Source: Methylovulum psychrotolerans
GTDB taxonomy: Bacteria > Pseudomonadota > Gammaproteobacteria > Methylococcales > Methylomonadaceae
Length of the DNA stretch: 64,000 nucleotides
Reading direction: 5' to 3'
NCBI RefSeq assembly: GCF_002923755.1
Contig: NZ_PGFZ01000002.1
Location: 73,704-137,703 of the forward strand
Part shown: positions 45,922 to 56,112 of the stretch, piece after piece
Position numbering within the stretch: position 1 is the stretch's first letter
Layout of the letters: every line of letters starts with the position of its first letter
Notes under the pieces: generated by a model
The model's input: the letters and a program-made list of their open reading frames with translations, nothing else
The model's database searches: none
Told to the model about the DNA's origin: nothing
Program-made: the position numbers and the translations under genes

Positions 45922-46551
45922 ATGACTTATCCTACCACCCTGTTACCCCAGTTAATCGAAGCCGTTGCCAATGCCATTGACGAAAATGCCGAGGCGGTGG
46001 CGGCGTTGGATCAGGCGATTGGTGATGGCGACCATGTGATTAATCTCCAGCGCGGGCTGGCGGCTTTGCTGGCGCAGCGCGAGGAATTGGGTTTGTTGAC
46101 GTGGTCGGCGGCGTGGCAAAAGATGGGTATGACCTTGATGTCGACGGTGGGTGGTGCGTCGGGGTCTTTGTTGGGGACGTTGTTTCTGGAGATGGCGAAA
46201 GCGGCGGCAGACCAGGCCTTGGATTTAAAGGGCTTTGCTGTCGTGTTTGCGCAGGGGGTTGAGGCGATGAAGCGGCGCGGCAAATCTGAGGCAGGCGAGA
46301 AAACCATGCTGGATGTTTTGGTGCCAGTGGCGGTTTATCTCCAGTCGGATGCCTGTACCGCCGCCGAGGGGTTAACCGGGGTGCAGGCGGTCGCTATAGC
46401 GGGGGTAGAGTCTACCCGCGCGATGTTGGCGACCAAGGGGCGGGCGGCGTTTTTGGCGGAACGTTCGGTCGGCCATATCGATGCGGGCGCAAAGTCCTGC
46501 CAGTTGATGATTTGCGCCATTAGCGCGGTGTTGTCAGCAGCCCCAACGTAA
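45922..46551 (+). CDS. dhaL: Dihydroxyacetone kinase ADP-binding subunit DhaL
   Basis: This 209-residue DAK2-domain protein carries the nucleotide and metal residues: LDQAIGDGDHVINLQRG (Asp ligands), STVGGASGSLLGTLF (nucleotide loop) and GEKTMLDVL. DhaL phosphorylates dihydroxyacetone bound to DhaK. It converges on dhaK with an 18-base overlap of 3' ends, unlike the usual same-strand operon. No DhaM phosphotransfer subunit is in the window, so ATP versus PEP use is unresolved. Confidence 0.9.
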   Translation: MTYPTTLLPQLIEAVANAIDENAEAVAALDQAIGDGDHVINLQRGLAALLAQREELGLLTWSAAWQKMGMTLMSTVGGASGSLLGTLFLEMAKAAADQALDLKGFAVVFAQGVEAMKRRGKSEAGEKTMLDVLVPVAVYLQSDACTAAEGLTGVQAVAIAGVESTRAMLATKGRAAFLAERSVGHIDAGAKSCQLMICAISAVLSAAPT

Positions 46552-47523
46552 CTGGGCGGTATGGACGGGTGCGTCCCAGAGCCGCAGCATTTCGTCATCG
46601 AGCAAAGTTAGGGTGATGGAGCAACCTGCCATGTCTAGGGACGTGGTGTAGTTACCGACTAAGGAACGGACGATGTTGACACCTTGCTGTTGCCAATGTT
46701 CGGCGGCTAAGGCGTAGATCAGATACAACTCCATCAGCGGTGTGGCCCCAAAGCCATTGATGTGCAACAACGCTTGGGCGTTGGCTTGGGGTTTTAAGTC
46801 GTCGTCAATGTGTGCCGCCAGTTGCGCGGTAATCGCGCTGGCGGTAGTCAGCGGTAAGGTGGCGCGGCCATGTTCGCCATGAATGCCGACGCCCATTTCC
46901 ATTTCCTGCTCGCCTAACGTAAAGGTCGGGTTGCCTAGGGCGGGTACGGTGCAACTGCTCAGGGCTACGCCCATAGAGGCGGTGTTTTGGTTGACGCGCT
47001 CGCCCAAGGCTTTGCACGCCGCCAAGTCGGCGCCTTGCTCGGCGGCGGCCCCGACGATTTTTTCCACGATTAAGGTGCCTGCGACACCGCGCCGCCCAGT
47101 GCTTTGGCTTTTGGGTATGGCGACATCATCATTTACCAATACAGTCGCGTTCGGGCTGTCCAGCAGTTCGGCGGCAATTTCAAAATTCATCACGTCACCC
47201 GCGTAATTCTTGACGATAAATAATACCCCGCCGCCCGTGTCGACCGCTTGCGCCGCCGCCAGCATTTGGTCGGGGGTAGGGGAGGTAAAGATTTGCCCAG
47301 GACAGGCGGCATCGAGCATTCCTAAGCCGACCAAGCCGGTATGCAACGGTTCGTGACCGGAGCCGCCGCCGGAGATCAAGGCGACTTTGCCTACCTGCTT
47401 GGGCTGTTTGCGGCGGATAACATAAGGCGGGGCGCTTAATTCGATGATGTCGGCATGTGCCAAGGCAAAGCCGCCGAGGCTTTCGGTAAGCAAGGTGTCG
47501 GTTGCGTTTAGAAATTTCTTCAT
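46534..47523 (-). CDS. dhaK: Dihydroxyacetone kinase substrate-binding subunit DhaK
   Basis: The 329-residue DAK1 protein binds dihydroxyacetone as a hemiaminal on a histidine, seen here in MGVGIHGEHGR. GGGSGHEPLHTG lies near residue 50, and KNYAGDVMNFEIAAEL follows. The product dihydroxyacetone phosphate enters the triose phosphate pool, which the nearby fba and tal genes also use. It is transcribed toward dhaL and is followed upstream by a HAD phosphatase gene on the same strand, with 26 bases between. Confidence 0.92.
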   Translation of the reverse strand: MKKFLNATDTLLTESLGGFALAHADIIELSAPPYVIRRKQPKQVGKVALISGGGSGHEPLHTGLVGLGMLDAACPGQIFTSPTPDQMLAAAQAVDTGGGVLFIVKNYAGDVMNFEIAAELLDSPNATVLVNDDVAIPKSQSTGRRGVAGTLIVEKIVGAAAEQGADLAACKALGERVNQNTASMGVALSSCTVPALGNPTFTLGEQEMEMGVGIHGEHGRATLPLTTASAITAQLAAHIDDDLKPQANAQALLHINGFGATPLMELYLIYALAAEHWQQQGVNIVRSLVGNYTTSLDMAGCSITLTLLDDEMLRLWDAPVHTAQLRWGC

Positions 47524-47549
47524 GGCGGTCGCCTTGGCGAGGTTGGGGG

Positions 47550-48383
47550 TTAAGCGGCTAAGGTTTTTAAGGCCTCGGTGACGGCGCGGATGTCCGCCAT
47601 GACCCAGGTCGGGCCGTAATCTGAGGCTTCCAAGTCGGCTTGGGTCGATACGCCTGTTAAGACCATCAGGCTGCGGATACCCGTCCGCACTGCGCCTAAA
47701 ATGTCGGTTTCCAGGCGGTCGCCTATCGCGACGGTTTCGGCTGGGTCGGTGCCGAGTAAGGCCATGGCTTGTTGATAAATGATCGGTTCCGGTTTACCGA
47801 TGATAGTCGGGCTGACACCGGTCGCCGCTTGCAGGGCGGCCAAAATCGCGCCGTTACCGTGGGTGATGCCGTATTCGGTGGGTAGGGTGGTGTCGGCATT
47901 GGTGCCGATGAATTTAGCCCCGGCACGGATGTTAAGGCTGGCGGTGGCGAGTTTATCCCAACTAAGGGTTTGGTCTTTGCCGCAGACGACAATATCCGCG
48001 CCTTCGCCTGGGGTTTTGGCGCTGTTAAGCTGGTAGAGTCCGGTCAAGGTAAAGCCGCATTGGCGTAGCGGTTCGCTCGCGCCCGCTTCGCCAAGCACGA
48101 AGACGCGGGTAGTGGCAGGGTCTTCATGCTGGCTCAAGTAGAGGGCGGTGGCCATGCCGGAGGTTAAGATTTCATTTTCGGTGACGGTTACGCCCATTTT
48201 CGCCAGTTTGTTAACATATTGGGGCGGGGTCAGGCTGGCGTTGTTGGTGGCAAGAATAAAACGGAAGTTTTGGGCGCGTAGCGTTTGGAAAAAATCCGTC
48301 AGGCCGGGGATGGCTTGGTCGCCGTGCCACAAAACCCCGTCCATGTCAATGATAAGGGCGCGGATATTGATAAAGGGTTCCAT
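47550..48383 (-). CDS. HAD-IIA family sugar/glycerol phosphatase
   Basis: This cytoplasmic phosphatase of about 277 residues, NagD/PGP type, has motif I ALIIDMDGVLWHGD, motif II LATNNAS, the cap domain in the middle, the lysine in IGKPEPIIY and motif III VAIGDRLETDI. The family includes phosphatases for phosphoglycolate, glycerol 3-phosphate and nucleotides. Its position just upstream of dhaK suggests a triose or glycerol phosphate substrate; that is inference. The start is the ATG at 48383 (MEPFINI), with GAGA before it. Confidence 0.85.
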   Translation of the reverse strand: MEPFINIRALIIDMDGVLWHGDQAIPGLTDFFQTLRAQNFRFILATNNASLTPPQYVNKLAKMGVTVTENEILTSGMATALYLSQHEDPATTRVFVLGEAGASEPLRQCGFTLTGLYQLNSAKTPGEGADIVVCGKDQTLSWDKLATASLNIRAGAKFIGTNADTTLPTEYGITHGNGAILAALQAATGVSPTIIGKPEPIIYQQAMALLGTDPAETVAIGDRLETDILGAVRTGIRSLMVLTGVSTQADLEASDYGPTWVMADIRAVTEALKTLAA

Positions 48384-48683
48384 ACAGGGTCTCAAATGAA
48401 AGGGCTTTTAGTTAGCCGCCTAGTATAAAAGGTTTATTGTCAATTGGCATCTTTAAATAGTGCCGAAAAGAGGCGGTTTTCGCAGTGCGGTGGGGGCTTG
48501 GCGTTAGCCGTAGTCCGCTTAACTAGAGTGTTTGCTAGGCGGTCTTAGGCTTACGGGGCTGTTGCTGGGCGGGCGGAAATAAGGAGGTGGAGATATTAAT
48601 TGTAAAATAATGATTTTGTATGATATTTTTATGGGGTCGCGTAAGCGGGCGGCGGCGTTAATTGGGCATTAAGCATTGGGGCA

Positions 48684-48775: not shown

Positions 48776-49423
48776 ATGGCTAGACCATTAATTCAGATGG
48801 CATTGGATTCATTAGATTTCGACGCAACCGTTGCGCTTGCTGAGCAAGTTGCACCACACGTTGACATTTTTGAAATCGGAACTCCATGCATCAAACACAA
48901 CGGCGTTAACCTGGTTAAAGCATTGAGAGCTAAATTCCCAGACAAGCTGATCTTGGTTGACCTTAAAACTATGGACGCTGGCGAATACGAAGCAACGCCA
49001 TTTTATGCTGCTGGCGCAGACATTTGTACAGTTCTGGGTGTTTCCGGTCTGGCAACTTGCATGGGTGTTATCAAAGCGGCTAACGCCTTCGGCGCAGAAG
49101 CCCAAATCGACTTGATCAACGTTGAAGACAAAGTTGCTTGCGCACGCGCAACATTTGAAGCTGGCGCCCACATCATGGGTATCCACACAGGTCTGGACGC
49201 ACAAGCGGCCGGCCACACACCTTTCTCTGACCTGAACGACATCGCCAGATTAGGCTTGAACGTCAGAATTTCAGTTGCTGGCGGTATCAAAGCGGCAACC
49301 GTACAAGACGTTGTCAAATCAGGTGCAAACATCATCGTTGTTGGCGCGGCTATCTATGGCGCTCCATCTCCTGCTGAAGCTGCCCGTGAAATCCGTGAAT
49401 TGGTTGACGCAACTGAGGTATAA
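48776..49423 (+). CDS. hps: 3-Hexulose-6-phosphate synthase
   Basis: This is the key formaldehyde-fixing enzyme of the RuMP pathway: formaldehyde plus ribulose 5-phosphate gives D-arabino-3-hexulose 6-phosphate. The 215-residue product is an orotidine-decarboxylase-like barrel. The active-site pattern is Asp62-x-Lys64-Thr-x-Asp67 (LVDLKTMDAGEYEA), with FEIGTPCIKHNG before it and SVAGGIKAAT, IIVVGAAIYGA after it. Codon use looks strongly biased (repeated GCT, GGC, AAC, GTT), fitting very high expression. It lies 2 bases before phi, with which it forms an operon. Confidence 0.96.
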   Translation: MARPLIQMALDSLDFDATVALAEQVAPHVDIFEIGTPCIKHNGVNLVKALRAKFPDKLILVDLKTMDAGEYEATPFYAAGADICTVLGVSGLATCMGVIKAANAFGAEAQIDLINVEDKVACARATFEAGAHIMGIHTGLDAQAAGHTPFSDLNDIARLGLNVRISVAGGIKAATVQDVVKSGANIIVVGAAIYGAPSPAEAAREIRELVDATEV

Positions 49424-49425
49424 GA

Positions 49426-49959
49426 ATGCACCAGCAACTTGTCATAGAAAAGATTTCAAGCATTCTTGAAGCCACAGACGGCACATACGATGTAAAGTTG
49501 ACTCAATTGCTCGACAGCGCCAAACGCATTTTTATCGCGGGTGCCGGCCGCTCCAAGCTTGTCGGTAATTTCTTTGCTATGAGATTGGTGCATGGTGGTT
49601 ACGATGTAAGCGTCGTAGGTGAGATTGTCACACCGAGCATAAAAGCCGGTGATTTGTTGATCATTATCTCCGGTTCTGGGGAAACTGAGCAATTAGTGGC
49701 ATTTACTAAAAGTGCTAAAAAGATAGGCGCTAACATCGTGTTGATTTCCGCTAAGGATTCATCAACTATCGGTGATATGGCGGATGCAGTGTTTCAAATT
49801 GGCCGTGCCGAGCAATACGGAAAAGTGTTTGGTATGCCAATGGGTACTGTGTTTGAACTGTCCACTTTATTATTTTTAGAATCGACTGTATCCCATATCA
49901 TTCATGAAAAAGGAATTCCTGAAGAGATTATGAGAGAAAGGCACGCTAACTTAGAATAA
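49426..49959 (+). CDS. phi: 6-Phospho-3-hexuloisomerase
   Basis: The enzyme turns the HPS product into fructose 6-phosphate. The 177-residue SIS-domain protein has IFIAGAGRSKLVGNFFAMRL (residues 35-54) and the phosphosugar loop IISGSGETEQLV, then VLISAKDSSTI and GMPMGTVFEL. In some methylotrophs hps and phi are fused; here they are separate and adjacent. A strong hairpin with a T-run follows it. Confidence 0.95.
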   Translation: MHQQLVIEKISSILEATDGTYDVKLTQLLDSAKRIFIAGAGRSKLVGNFFAMRLVHGGYDVSVVGEIVTPSIKAGDLLIIISGSGETEQLVAFTKSAKKIGANIVLISAKDSSTIGDMADAVFQIGRAEQYGKVFGMPMGTVFELSTLLFLESTVSHIIHEKGIPEEIMRERHANLE

Positions 49960-49998: not shown

Positions 49999-50085
49999 TT
50001 TGCATAATAACAAAATAATTTTCCTGGCAAGGCCTTGTTATGGCTGTTGTCACTGATAAGTAATTTAAATAGTAAGGAGAACAAT

Positions 50086-52080
50086 ATGACTTCGCGCCGA
50101 GAATTAGCGAACGCCATACGCGCTTTGAGCATGGATGCTGTACAAAAAGCAAACTCTGGTCACCCAGGGGCACCAATGGGCATGGCGGATATCGCCGAAG
50201 TTCTCTGGAATGACTTCATGACCCATAATCCGACCAACCCAAAATGGTCGAATCGTGATCGTTTTGTTCTCTCAAATGGTCATGGCTCAATGCTGATCTA
50301 CTCCCTGTTGCATCTGACAGGTTATGATCTGCCGATTGACGAGCTGAAAAGATTCCGTCAGTTGCATTCTAAAACCCCCGGACACCCAGAATACGGTTAC
50401 GCGCCTGGCATAGAAACCACCACTGGGCCATTAGGCCAAGGTATTACTAATGCTGTCGGTATGGCGATTGCCGAAAAAGCTCTGGCCGCGCAATTTAACC
50501 GTGACGGGCATACTGTCGTTGATCACAACACCTACGTCTTTTTAGGTGACGGCTGTCTGATGGAAGGCATTTCCCATGAAGCCTGTTCGTTAGCCGGTAC
50601 TTTAGGTTTGGGCAAACTGGTGGCGTTTTGGGATGACAACGGCATTTCTATCGACGGTCATGTTGATGGATGGTTTACGGATAATACCCCACAACGTTTC
50701 GAGGCTTATGGCTGGCATGTGATTGCCGATGTCGACGGCCACGATTCTGATGCTCTCTACAAAGCGATTGAGTTGGCAAAAGCTGTTACCGGCAAACCGA
50801 CCTTAATTTGCTGCAAAACCACTATCGGTTTTGGTTCGCCCAATAAATCCGGTTCCCATGCTTGCCACGGCGCACCGTTAGGTGATGCCGAAATCAATCT
50901 GACTAAGGCGGCATTAGGTTGGGATTACGGTGCTTTTGAAGTGCCTGAACACGTTTATGCCGGCTGGGATGCCAAAGAAAAAGGTGCGCACGCCGAACAG
51001 GCGTGGAATGAAAAATTCCAAGCGTATCAAGCGGAATATCCTGAGTTGGCGGCGGAATACCAACGCCGTATGGCAGGTGATTTGCCGACAGATTGGGCTG
51101 AAGGCGCGGACGCGTTTGTCAGTGCCGTGAACGCTGAAGCCAAAACCACTGCTACCCGTTTATCCTCTTTAGCGTCTATCGAAGGTTACGCGAAATTATT
51201 GCCGGAAATTTTTGGCGGTTCTGCTGACTTAGGTTGCTCTAACATGACGGAGTGGACAGGTTATAAGCCTATGCGGGCCGATAAGCCCAATGCCAACTAT
51301 GTCAATTACGGTGTCCGTGAGTTCGGGATGTCCGCGATTATGAACGGCGTGGCCTTACACGGCGGTTTGGTGCCTTTCGGTGCGACCTTCCTGATGTTCT
51401 CTGAGTATGCGCGTAACGCGGTCAGAATGGCTTCTTTAATGAAAATCCGTTCTATCTTCGTTTACACCCACGACTCTATCGGTTTAGGTGAAGACGGCCC
51501 GACCCACCAGCCTGTCGAACAAACGGCGACCCTGCGGTTAATTCCGGGTATGCACGTTTGGCGTACTTGTGACGCAGTCGAAACCGCTGTCGCTTGGCGT
51601 GCCGCGATTGAACGTAAAGACGGCCCTTCGGTACTGGTGTTTTCACGCCAAAACTTGCCGCATGTTCCGCGTACTGATGCACAAATTAGTGCCATCACCC
51701 GTGGCGGGTATATCTTGGTTGATAGCGAAGGTACACCTGACGCGATTATTATCGCGACCGGTTCAGAAGTTGAGCTGGCTGTGAAGGCGGCGGAACAGTT
51801 AAAAGCCTCAGGTAAGAACATCCGTGTCGTTTCCATGCCATCGACCAACATTTTTGATGCCCAAGATGCGGCTTATAAAGAGTCCGTATTGCCTTCTTCT
51901 GTAACCCAACGCGTTGCCGTTGAAGCAGGCGTGACCGATGGTTGGTGGAAGTATGTCGGCACCAATGGAAGAATTGTCGGTATTGATCATTTCGGTGAAT
52001 CAGCACCCGCAGGGCAACTGTTTAAAGAGTTCGGTTTTACTGTTGAAAATGTAGTTCTAAATGTAGAAGCGGTACTTTAA
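50086..52080 (+). CDS. tkt: Transketolase
   Basis: This thiamine-diphosphate enzyme rearranges sugar phosphates to regenerate ribulose 5-phosphate in the RuMP cycle. It has 664 residues from the ATG at 50086, preceded by TAAGGAGAACAAT; the longer frame from 50035 is not needed. Motifs: His26 in [33 protein letters not shown], the cofactor motif GDGCLMEG...DDNGISIDG, and [16 protein letters not shown] in the second domain. It is the first gene of a unit that continues into the two repeat-protein genes. Confidence 0.96.
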
Positions 52081-52224: not shown

Positions 52225-52252
52225 TATTTCTTCCGACTTAAAGGTGAACAAC

Positions 52253-52945
52253 GTGAAAAAAAATAATCTTATAAATGGTTTGTTTGCGACCTTATTGATT
52301 GCTAGTCCGCTAGCAGGTGCAGATCAGAAATACCCTGCGGCAGACTTCCAACCACAAGTCGTTTTTCAAGATAACGATTTGATAGCCAAAAGTGGTTCAG
52401 CCAGCAAACCTGCGGCAAAAGTTGCAGAGGCTTCTGCCAGCAATGAAGTGGATGCGAAATATCCGGCCGCCAACTTTCAGCCACAAGTTGTCTATAGTGA
52501 CCCTAACTATAAACCCGGTGCCGTTGCACCTGCTAAGGCCAGTAAATCAGAAAGCGTCAGCGAAAGTGCTGCTGTAGAGACCCCAATTGAAAGCACCAGC
52601 GTCGCTGCTGCCGCTAAAGAAGAGTCACAATCCACTTACTTGATCGGCCTGATTGCTTTAGGCTTGGTCGGCGGCTTCCTGTTTAAAGGCCAAACCAAAT
52701 GCAGCGGTAAAAAAGCGGCGGCTAGCCCTGCTCCTGCTCCCGTCGCTAAAGGCGGTTTGACAGGCGTATCCAGATACTTAAATAAAGTGTCCGGTACTGG
52801 CGTTTCCAGATACTTGGAAAAACAAGTTAAAGCCGCGCCTTCTACAGGTGTTGCCAAATATCTTGCCAAACAAGTGACTGTCGCCAAATCAACAGCGGCA
52901 GGTGCGGCGACTGGCGTTGAAAAATACATGCGTAACCGGGGATAA
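52253..52945 (+). CDS. Membrane-anchored TGV-repeat protein 1 (unknown)
   Basis: The product of about 230 residues starts at the GTG at 52253, seven bases after AAAGGTGA; another in-frame GTG lies at 52244. A signal peptide (GLFATLLIASPLAGA) is followed by two copies of K-Y-P-A-A-[DN]-F-Q-P-Q-V-V-[FY] (near residues 23 and 66) and a Ser/Ala-rich linker. A membrane helix follows (YLIGLIALGLVGGFLF, near residues 132-148). The tail carries four repeats: LTGVSRYLNK, TGVSRYLEKQ, TGVAKYLAKQ and TGVEKYMRNRG at the very end. The predicted topology puts the first repeats in the periplasm and the TGV tail in the cytoplasm. It lies between tkt and TGV-repeat protein 2, 3 bases from the latter. No family recognised. 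Confidence 0.85.
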   Translation: MKKNNLINGLFATLLIASPLAGADQKYPAADFQPQVVFQDNDLIAKSGSASKPAAKVAEASASNEVDAKYPAANFQPQVVYSDPNYKPGAVAPAKASKSESVSESAAVETPIESTSVAAAAKEESQSTYLIGLIALGLVGGFLFKGQTKCSGKKAAASPAPAPVAKGGLTGVSRYLNKVSGTGVSRYLEKQVKAAPSTGVAKYLAKQVTVAKSTAAGAATGVEKYMRNRG

Positions 52946-52948
52946 GCA

Positions 52949-53764
52949 ATGAACCAAAATTACTTGAGTGGATTTTTTTTCCCCGCTGTGGCTGGCTTAT
53001 TCTTTTTTATGAAACGGCACGATGATGAAGGGACGCATGTGGAAACTCACATTGCTGCGCCTGTCTATGCTGCCGATGCAAGTGGTCTGACTGGCGTTGC
53101 GAGATATTTGGAAAGCCAAAGACGGCTTTTAGAGGCGGATAAAGAAGAAGCGGAGTCACTCGAAGAACAAAGAAATACTCAAGTGATTACGGGCGTGGCT
53201 AAATATTTAGAAAAAGCCCAACAAACGCCTGTTAGCGGTGTTACCCGCTACATGCTGAAAAAGTCACTGGCGGAAAAAAACGCCCCAAAGCCAGCCGCTA
53301 AACTGCAATTGACCGGTGTTGCCAAATATTTAAGCAACCAAAAAGACGCACCTGTGTTGAGCGGCGTGGCAAAGTATCTGAAAAAACAAGAGAGCCTGCC
53401 GCCCGCAACGAAAGTCGCTAAGTATATGGCCAAACAAGCCTTGGCAGCGAAACAGGCAAAACCAGCCGTTATTCATATTGAACTAACGGGCGTGGAAAAG
53501 TATCTTAAGCAACAGGAAGATCTGCCGCAATTGAGTAAGGTCGCTAAGTACATGAGAAAGCAGGCGTTGCTGGCTAAATTAGAAAAGCCTGCCGCCGTGG
53601 CAAAACCTAAATTGACAGGCGTTGCCAAATACTTACAAAACCAGGACAGTCTGCCTAAAATTAGCCGTGTAACTAAATACATGGCAAGACAAGCATTGGC
53701 AAACAAAAATAAAATTGAAATGATTGAAACAGGTGTCGATAAATATATGAGGAATCGTGCCTAG
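52949..53764 (+). CDS. Membrane-anchored TGV-repeat protein 2 (unknown)
   Basis: The 271-residue product has an N-terminal hydrophobic anchor (YLSGFFFPAVAGLFFFM) followed by basic KRH, which favours a cytoplasmic body. Eleven copies of [TS]-x-V-x-[KR]-Y-[LM] fill the rest. From about residue 100 they alternate: a TGV or SGV unit ending YLxxQ (TGVAKYLSNQ, TGVEKYLKQQ, TGVAKYLQNQ), then a KV or RV unit ending YMxxQAL (TKVAKYMAKQALAAK, SKVAKYMRKQALLAK, SRVTKYMARQALANK). The linkers are charged and proline-containing. It ends TGVDKYMRNRA, nearly the end of protein 1. It is strongly basic. Probably co-transcribed with tkt and protein 1. Function unknown; scaffold or anchor for enzymes is inferred from context. 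Confidence 0.87.
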   Translation: MNQNYLSGFFFPAVAGLFFFMKRHDDEGTHVETHIAAPVYAADASGLTGVARYLESQRRLLEADKEEAESLEEQRNTQVITGVAKYLEKAQQTPVSGVTRYMLKKSLAEKNAPKPAAKLQLTGVAKYLSNQKDAPVLSGVAKYLKKQESLPPATKVAKYMAKQALAAKQAKPAVIHIELTGVEKYLKQQEDLPQLSKVAKYMRKQALLAKLEKPAAVAKPKLTGVAKYLQNQDSLPKISRVTKYMARQALANKNKIEMIETGVDKYMRNRA

Positions 53765-53944: not shown

Positions 53945-54940
53945 ATGGCAAAAAATTTACTTGAGCAACTTAGAGAGTTCACTGTTATTGTCGCAGATAC
54001 TGGAGACATTCAAGCGATTGAAACAGTTAAACCTCAAGATGCGACAACTAACCCCTCTTTGATCACTGCGGCGGCACAAATGCCACAATATCAAGGCATT
54101 GTTGACGATACCCTGACAGGTGCAAGAGCAACTTTAGGTGCGGATGCCACTTCCGCTCAAGTCGTTTCTTTGGCGTTTGACCGTTTGGCTGTTTCTTTTG
54201 GTCTGAAAATCTTGGAAATTATTCCTGGCCGGGTTTCTACCGAAGTTGACGCACGTCTGTCTTTCGACACGGATGCAACTATTGCTAAAGGCCGTGAACT
54301 GATCGCCCAATACGAAGCGGCGGGCATTGCGCGTGAGCGTATTTTGATTAAAATAGCGTCAACTTGGGAAGGTATCCAAGCCGCCGCCGTTTTAGAAAAA
54401 GAAGGCATCCATTGTAACCTGACCTTGTTGTTCGGTCTGCACCAAGCGGTTGCTTGTGCCGAAAACGGTATCACCTTGATCTCGCCTTTCGTAGGCCGTA
54501 TCCTTGACTGGTACAAAAAAGACACAGGCCGTGATTCTTACCCTGCGGCGGAAGATCCAGGCGTATTGTCGGTCACTGAAATCTATAACTACTACAAAAA
54601 GTTCGGTTACAAAACTGAAGTTATGGGCGCAAGCTTCCGTAACATCGGCGAAATCACCGAATTGGCCGGTTCTGACTTGTTGACTATCGCCCCTTCTTTG
54701 TTGGCTGAATTGCAAGCGACTGAAGGCGAACTGCCACGCAAATTAGACCCAGCGCACGCGGCGACCTTGTCTATCGAAAAAATCAATGTCACTAAAGAGC
54801 TGTTTGATACCATGCACGCTGCAAACCGTATGGCGACTGACAAGCTGGCAGAAGGCATCAACGGCTTTACCGTTGCCTTAGAAGCTTTAGAAAAACTGTT
54901 GGCTGAGCGCTTGGCAACATTAGAAGAAGTGGCTGCCTAA
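53945..54940 (+). CDS. tal: Transaldolase
   Basis: This 331-residue class I aldolase-like enzyme is of the TalB type. It transfers dihydroxyacetone units between sugar phosphates to regenerate the formaldehyde acceptor. Motifs: [18 protein letters not shown] near the start, the Schiff-base lysine at Lys136 in [16 protein letters not shown], and [16 protein letters not shown]. In place of the E. coli ending it has a slightly longer tail ([18 protein letters not shown]). AGAAGG lies 9 bases before the ATG. Confidence 0.95.
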
Positions 54941-55032: not shown

Positions 55033-56112
55033 ATGTCACAAAAAATTTCAGATGTCGTCAAGCCAGGTGTAGTTACAGGCGACGATGTACAAAAAGTCTT
55101 TGCCATCGCCAAAGAAAATAAATTTGCTTTGCCAGCGGTTAACGTTATCGGTACCGGTTCTATCAACGCGGTATTAGAAGCGGCGGCCAAAGTTAAGTCG
55201 GCGGTTATTGTCCAGTTCTCTAACGGCGGCGCACAATTCGTCGCAGGTAAGGGGCTGAAATTAGCCGGTCAACAACAAGCTATTTTGGGTGCGATTTCAG
55301 GTGCGCAACATGTGCATAATGTCGCGGAAGCTTATGGTGTGCCGGTTATTTTGCACACTGACCATGCCGCTAAAAATCTGTTGCCTTGGATCGATGGTCT
55401 GTTAGATGCAGGCGAAAAACATTTTGCCCAAACCGGTAAGCCACTGTTCAGTTCACACATGTTGGACTTGTCGGAAGAAAGCTTGGAAGAAAACATCGAA
55501 ATTTGCGGCCAATACTTAGCGCGCATGGCCAAAATGGGCATGACCTTGGAAATTGAATTGGGCGTGACTGGCGGTGAAGAAGACGGTGTCGATAACAGCG
55601 GCATGGATCATTCCATGTTGTACACCCAACCGGAAGATGTGGCTTATGCTTACGAGCATTTGAGCAAAATCAGTGACCGTTTCACTATCGCGGCTTCTTT
55701 CGGTAACGTCCACGGCGTTTATTCGCCAGGCAACGTTAAGCTGACTCCGAGCATTTTGGATAACTCACAAAAATATGTGTCCGAAAAATACGGCGTTCCG
55801 GCTAATAGCTTGAATTTCGTGTTCCACGGCGGTTCCGGTTCGTCTCCTGAAGAAATCAGCGAATCTATCAGCTATGGCGTTATCAAAATGAACATTGATA
55901 CCGATACCCAATGGGCGGCATGGGACGGCATCAGACAGTATTACCTGAAAAATGAAGGTTATTTGCAAGGCCAAATCGGCAACCCAGACGGTGCCGACAA
56001 ACCGAACAAAAAATTCTATGACCCACGGGTTTGGCAACGCGCCAGCGAAGTGAGCATCGTTACCCGTTTGGAACAAGCGTTCCAAGATTTGAACGCGGTT
56101 AACAGCTTGTAA
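55033..56112 (+). CDS. fbaA: Class II fructose-1,6-bisphosphate aldolase
   Basis: This zinc-dependent aldolase has 359 residues, the same length as E. coli FbaA. Zinc and active-site segments: VILHTDHAAKNLLPWIDGLL, LEIELGVTGGEEDGVDNSG, FGNVHGVYSPGNVKLTP, FVFHGGSGSSPEEI and VIKMNIDTDTQWA. It splits fructose bisphosphate to triose phosphates, which feed biosynthesis and the rearrangement phase of the RuMP cycle. It ends in a strong terminator. Phosphofructokinase is not in the window. Confidence 0.95.
   Translation: MSQKISDVVKPGVVTGDDVQKVFAIAKENKFALPAVNVIGTGSINAVLEAAAKVKSAVIVQFSNGGAQFVAGKGLKLAGQQQAILGAISGAQHVHNVAEAYGVPVILHTDHAAKNLLPWIDGLLDAGEKHFAQTGKPLFSSHMLDLSEESLEENIEICGQYLARMAKMGMTLEIELGVTGGEEDGVDNSGMDHSMLYTQPEDVAYAYEHLSKISDRFTIAASFGNVHGVYSPGNVKLTPSILDNSQKYVSEKYGVPANSLNFVFHGGSGSSPEEISESISYGVIKMNIDTDTQWAAWDGIRQYYLKNEGYLQGQIGNPDGADKPNKKFYDPRVWQRASEVSIVTRLEQAFQDLNAVNSL

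Follow-up and report, generated by a model that had tools for sequence, protein, structure and literature searches.

Paired TGV-repeat proteins encoded in the RuMP gene cluster of Methylovulum psychrotolerans are candidate linkers of RuMP enzymes

In the 64-kb stretch of DNA that was analyzed (the window), two genes, P1 and P2, are located 3 bases apart between the transketolase and transaldolase genes of a RuMP cluster. The window comes from a genome of 5.2 Mb whose closest named relatives belong to Methylovulum, including M. miyakonense HT12. A preliminary description had placed two adjacent genes there, and both were found in that position with hps, phi, tkt, tal and fba as neighbors (Table 1). 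The GTG start codon of P1 at position 52253 agrees with an AAAGG ribosome site at positions 52240-52244.

Table 1. Coordinates of P1, P2, their sequence features and the conserved neighboring genes in the window.
Feature	Position	Strand	Remarks
P1	52253..52945	+	230 aa: signal-peptide-like start, 2 periplasmic repeats, a single transmembrane stretch and 4 TGV motifs in a cytoplasmic tail
P1 signal-peptide-like N-terminus	52253..52321	+	residues 1-23; from sequence, conserved across A1 and A3
P1 periplasmic repeat 1, KYPAADFQPQVVFQD	52328..52372	+	
P1 periplasmic repeat 2, KYPAANFQPQVVYSD	52457..52501	+	
P1 transmembrane stretch	52628..52684	+	residues 126-144, from hydropathy (1.67) and charge
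P1 TGV motifs	52760..52930	+	starts 52760, 52796, 52844, 52910
P2	52949..53764	+	271 aa: hydrophobic N-terminus, 11 TGV motifs
P2 TGV motifs	53090..53749	+	starts 53090, 53189, 53234, 53312, 53360, 53408, 53486, 53534, 53615, 53663, 53729
hps (3-hexulose-6-phosphate synthase)	48776..49423	+	proposed main partner of the TGV proteins
phi (6-phospho-3-hexuloisomerase)	49426..49959	+	conserved neighbor
tkt (transketolase)	50035..52080	+	conserved neighbor
tal (transaldolase)	53945..54940	+	conserved neighbor
fba (fructose-bisphosphate aldolase)	55033..56112	+	conserved neighbor

The preliminary description had assigned one membrane anchor to each protein, with the repeats facing the cytoplasm. For P1 both statements agree with the sequence, which displays a signal-peptide-like start and a transmembrane stretch followed by positive charges, placing the TGV tail in the cytoplasm. 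For P2 the case for an anchor is weak, since the best 19-residue hydropathy is only 1.19 and the N-terminus carries no transmembrane stretch in most other genera. Judged by sequence, P2 is not generally membrane-anchored across genera. The periplasmic part of P1 relatives contains up to three repeats of the form YPAA[DN]FQPxVxYxD, two of which are present in the P1 of the window.

A six-frame scan of the 64-kb window for the motif [TS][GKR]Vx[KR]Y[LM] recovered the 4 copies in P1 and the 11 copies in P2 that had been described, and no further copy outside the two genes in any frame. The P2 set consists of 8 strict [TS]-G-V copies and 3 variants (TKV, SKV and SRV) in which K or R replaces G. 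The near-identical last residues of the pair are likewise as first described (TGVEKYMRNRG and TGVDKYMRNRA). In composition-preserving shuffles, 0.0001-0.0004 motif copies were expected per protein, with a maximum of 1 in 20,000 shuffles. Synonymous codons differ among the motif copies, and comparison of P2 with four Methylovulum relatives gave dN/dS values of 0.011-0.022 for the motifs versus 0.12-0.19 for the linkers, that is, approximately tenfold stronger purifying selection on the motif. Thus, selection acts on the protein, and a recent DNA repeat expansion is ruled out as the origin of the motifs by the codon diversity and the dN/dS values.

The number of motifs ranges from 2 to 18 per protein across the relatives, with mostly 2 to 5 in those of P1 and about 4 to 18 in P2 across genera. 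From 869 copies in 148 proteins we obtained the consensus [T/S]-G-V-A-[K/R]-Y-[L/M]-x-K-Q, in which the seven core positions were partly fixed by the search pattern itself. V and Y are nearly invariant, again in part because the pattern required them. The most frequent spacings between these copies are 16, 20, 22 and 15 residues.

Structure prediction gave no confident fold for either protein. The model of P1 is too uncertain to be read (mean pLDDT 54.6). The AlphaFold model of P2 has no fixed overall fold (pTM 0.17), although all 11 motifs begin a short helix at the residue after T. The TGV motifs are therefore predicted to be docking peptides of helical form, strung along a flexible chain, and this beads-on-a-string anatomy supports the flexible repeat tail suggested in the preliminary description.

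The tails of both proteins are basic in the window, with net charges of +13 for P1 and +18 for P2, as would suit repeats that bind nucleic acid, polyphosphate or lipid head groups and have no specific enzyme partner. However, the net charge ranges between -10 and +33 among the relatives and is -9 or -10 in some proteins with an intact motif, and the near-invariance of V and Y, even if partly imposed by the search pattern, does not suit such binding either. Binding of polyanions is disfavored by the charge, and we consider it very improbable.

That the pair belongs to no described family, as first proposed, agrees with all searches. Matches in Pfam and NCBIfam were low-complexity or sub-threshold, apart from a match of P2 to U1snRNP70_N that exceeded the cut-off; this match is also of low complexity and not credible for a bacterial protein. 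The PDB contained no matches to the P1 and P2 profiles, and no published account of TGV proteins was found in the literature searched, which lay mostly outside subscription journals. Relatives were absent from viral contigs, and phage carriage is thereby ruled out. The two proteins represent a family that has not been described in these sources; as putative multivalent enzyme linkers, they would be of a known kind.

We compared the surroundings of the TGV genes across genomes, using inferred family names: Methylomonadaceae (f1), Methylococcaceae (f4), Cycloclasticus-like (f7), Methylophaga-like (f10) and Methylophilaceae-like (f206). Throughout the Methylococcales the TGV proteins adjoin hps, tkt or tal, with varying gene orders. 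The order in Methylomonadaceae is hps-phi-tkt-P1-(P2)-tal-fba, whereas P1 mostly adjoins hps in Methylococcaceae. In a scan of the collection, tkt precedes and tal follows P1 at the 31 loci with P1 in the cluster, wherever the contig extends far enough. Outside the order, the Methylophaga-like genomes display hps-TGV-tal-hps-phi. RuMP modules duplicated in tandem each contain a TGV gene of their own (L037, L038, L145, L151). At two of these loci (L037 in G021 and L038 in G029), tandem hps-phi-tkt-TGV modules with identical enzyme identities precede the full cluster and represent a recent amplification. In the available text of two publications, the RuMP duplication of Methylococcus is described with no mention of a TGV-type gene (PMC517821, PMC8527097).

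Two further features of the neighborhoods were observed. Genes similar to dhaK and dhaL and a HAD-type phosphatase-like gene, all named from sequence only, adjoin hps in the window (45922-48395), and this conserved neighborhood recurs beside hps in many of the genomes compared (L181-L183, L034, L041, L044, L046 and L048), the Methylophaga-like family included. Genomes of two families share one stretch with the same proteins (L045 in G052:C1 and L046 in G038:C285), an indication that one of the assemblies includes a contaminating contig.

The distribution of the TGV proteins follows that of HPS. The P1 profile matched 169 of the 201 genomes of the order and HPS 170 of 201; among the matches listed, 163 genomes had both, 6 had P1 only and 7 had HPS only. 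The number of TGV-positive genomes is somewhat lower than 169, because in family f6 the P1 profile matches are largely confined to the periplasmic part, and the single f6 protein examined over its full length (L138) is devoid of TGV motifs. This protein (from G058) and its counterpart in f2 (L139, from G044) have kept the periplasmic part, with no TGV motif in their tails and no RuMP genes in the vicinity. The TGV system is present in all sampled genomes of the main methanotroph family.

Among 369 gammaproteobacterial genomes, an HPS of at least 70% identity is present in six (G000, G029, G039, G211, G368 and G570), which are the same six that contain TGV arrays. The preliminary description had stated beforehand that homologues in non-methylotrophs would count against it; none of the remaining genomes in this sample contained a TGV array, an outcome in favor of the description. 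Weak profile matches in G439, G218 and G536 (E 0.001-0.006), with no motif in the stretches examined, were taken as chance. The Methylophaga-like genomes have HPS and TGV arrays but no member of the AMO/PMO family, and conversely the AMO family is present while HPS and TGV are absent in f8 and in one Cycloclasticus-like genome. Thus, the TGV proteins track the RuMP pathway and are ruled out as a marker of methane oxidation. With conserved linkage and co-occurrence with HPS, the tie to the RuMP genes is stronger than originally proposed.

The association is one-sided. Several RuMP methanotrophs have no TGV system (G057, G064, G080, G088 and others, including some Methylococcaceae with HPS), and TGV proteins were not found in 80 genomes from the family of G915, which itself is HPS-positive. 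The system is thus not essential to the pathway. Replacement by an HPS-PHI fusion in the TGV-less genomes is ruled out, since their HPS is unfused.

The HPS enzymes associated with TGV proteins cluster in the HPS tree, with 5 changes as compared to 21.5 in shuffles. Of 118 columns conserved in these enzymes, L58, E70, E108 and R164 are the most often changed in TGV-less lineages, and it is at precisely these four that the HPS of G057 differs. When seven control TGV lineages are each considered as a unit, all four columns are unchanged. All four residues are intact in 62 of 62 TGV-adjacent HPS and in 3 of 3 HPS-PHI fusions, as compared to 0 of 18 HPS from TGV-less genomes, a count that describes the contrast by which the columns were picked and is not a test of it. 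Two enzymes were left out of the 62 versus 18 count, L270 (G065, KEQQ) and L272 (G075, KLEK); in the genome of the latter the profile match is weak, and the contig examined shows no TGV gene. More independent support is provided by the g39 lineage, placed inside the TGV clade, and by the Methylophaga-like genomes, where the TGV-adjacent copy of HPS retains the four residues and the other copy carries K58 and K164.

Such sharing of sites never arose when sites were chosen at random, either uniformly or weighted by variability. Residue tracking is far less evident for PHI and TAL in controls with fewer lineages, where PHI displayed one site common to at least three lineages and TAL none of three. 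The HPS pattern partly follows phylogeny. By homology from known active-site positions, residues 58, 108 and 164 presumably lie before strands beta3, beta5 and beta7, on the floor of the barrel, where the four residues could possibly form an internal network. These patterns point to HPS, rather than transketolase or transaldolase, as the clearest candidate and most likely partner of the TGV motifs.

Homologues had been expected beside hps-phi or tkt-tal, which is what we found across the Methylococcales and in the Methylophaga-like family; some TGV paralogues, however, are located away from RuMP genes, although only in genomes of these lineages. One class has about 4 to 6 motifs, a Cys/His-rich C-terminus and changing neighbors (L047, L052, L059, L062, L063 and L155), with the conserved end TQCQAxTxKGTQCxN...CxQH...FKPY. 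Assignment of this tail to DUF5763 (PF19067) was rejected, with only 7.9 bits in one of the six against a cut-off of 26.3. In two Methylophaga-like genomes, a TGV array is inserted in a multi-Hpt CheA-type hybrid kinase (L231 in G211:C20; L184/L175 in G368:C10), which we take, from its sequence, to be of the ChpA/PilL kind. One of these kinases contains TSVERYIQQQ six times.

Because of such proteins, a different function of the motif stays alive, namely that it is an address to a cellular hub (a membrane domain, the pole or the intracytoplasmic membranes) that binds no RuMP enzyme, with the RuMP genes adjoining since the hub matters there. Its occurrence in the ChpA/PilL-like kinase and in the Cys/His-tailed proteins would be expected of an address, but the restriction of TGV arrays to genomes of RuMP lineages, their presence in Methylophaga-like genomes devoid of AMO/PMO and the HPS residues that track them would not. 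We regard the hub as unlikely.

Since the motif arrays occur, among the gammaproteobacteria sampled, only where the RuMP pathway occurs, the TGV proteins probably constitute a natural scaffold of RuMP enzymes. Specifically, we put at roughly even odds (about 0.5), from sequence evidence, that P1 and P2 are a multivalent linker that docks RuMP enzymes, most likely HPS, with P1 tying them to the membrane. Each TGV motif would be a short helical docking peptide on flexible linkers that binds these enzymes; P2, soluble or peripheral, would cluster them, and P1 would tether the cluster to the cytoplasmic or an intracytoplasmic membrane, while its periplasmic repeats may touch a partner on that side of the membrane. 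The advantage would lie in rapid trapping of toxic formaldehyde. HPS is reportedly membrane-bound in Methylococcus; the literature searched contained no such report, and it forms no part of this argument. The linker is supported by the RuMP linkage in varied gene orders, the co-occurrence with HPS, the selection on the motif, the predicted helices and the HPS residues. The RuMP bacteria without TGV proteins, the Cys/His-tailed class, the CheA-type kinase and the choice of HPS residues by contrast count against it.

Such a linker would work like CsoS2, the Rubisco and shell scaffold of alpha-carboxysomes, or EPYC1, the Rubisco linker of the Chlamydomonas pyrenoid, yet be a member of neither family, as no homology was found. 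CsoS2 is similarly long and largely disordered, with repeated short motifs and a gene beside those of carbon-assimilation enzymes, but the TGV motif differs, the pathway is RuMP and not Rubisco, and P1 spans the membrane. No CsoS2 model was among the Pfam and NCBIfam matches of P1 and P2 at E up to 10, and their neighbors are hps, phi, tkt, tal and fba rather than Rubisco or shell genes. EPYC1 shares with the predicted P2 the short helical docking motifs spaced along a disordered chain, but is algal, has another enzyme and motif and no membrane anchor, and a sequence relation was not found.

Another known protein, CP12, is small and disordered and acts on Calvin cycle enzymes. It resembles the TGV proteins in size, disorder and the tie of the gene product to a carbon-assimilation cycle, but has no repeat array and contains redox cysteines, whereas P2 has no cysteine. 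By analogy, the TGV proteins could be disordered regulators or chaperones that switch or stabilize HPS and gather no pathway. The RuMP linkage and the HPS covariation would look the same as for a scaffold, and the structure predictions, largely of disorder, would suit a regulator. However, a member that spans the membrane and as many as 18 nearly equivalent copies fit gathering better than switching, so that we find a regulator rather improbable.

To our knowledge, it is not settled how toxic formaldehyde is dealt with in RuMP methanotrophs after it is produced and before it is fixed. A natural scaffold, if confirmed, would be relevant to this question. It would also provide synthetic methylotrophy with a transferable docking tag and extend the multivalent enzyme linkers beyond Rubisco. 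With a motif of ten residues and four residues of HPS to work on, the idea can be tested directly. Mdh-Hps-Phi assemblies have been engineered to join formaldehyde production and fixation (PMC8879981); those are artificial fusions, whereas the TGV proteins are natural and unfused to enzymes.

A tentative extension, which we think doubtful, is that P1 bridges the envelope, with the periplasmic YPAADFQP repeats docking methanol- or methane-oxidizing enzymes and the cytoplasmic TGV helices, together with P2, gathering HPS and other RuMP enzymes. If so, formaldehyde would pass from a periplasmic source to a cytoplasmic sink inside one assembly. The periplasmic repeats might instead be the working part of proteins with a structural role in the envelope or the intracytoplasmic membranes, with an incidental RuMP linkage. 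P1 spans the membrane, and the repeats are also found by themselves in small secreted proteins, as well as in the P1-like f6 proteins that have no TGV motifs. This structural role is nevertheless improbable, as the Methylophaga-like TGV proteins have neither a periplasmic part nor AMO/PMO in their genomes and are still encoded between hps and tal. The secreted proteins with the repeats alone are short (about 84-138 aa) and contain two or three YPAANFQPKVxY repeats and no TGV motifs (L186, L132, L133, L134 and, in the genome of the window itself, L185 at G000:C9:17181), and two of them adjoin an NMT1-type ABC transporter.
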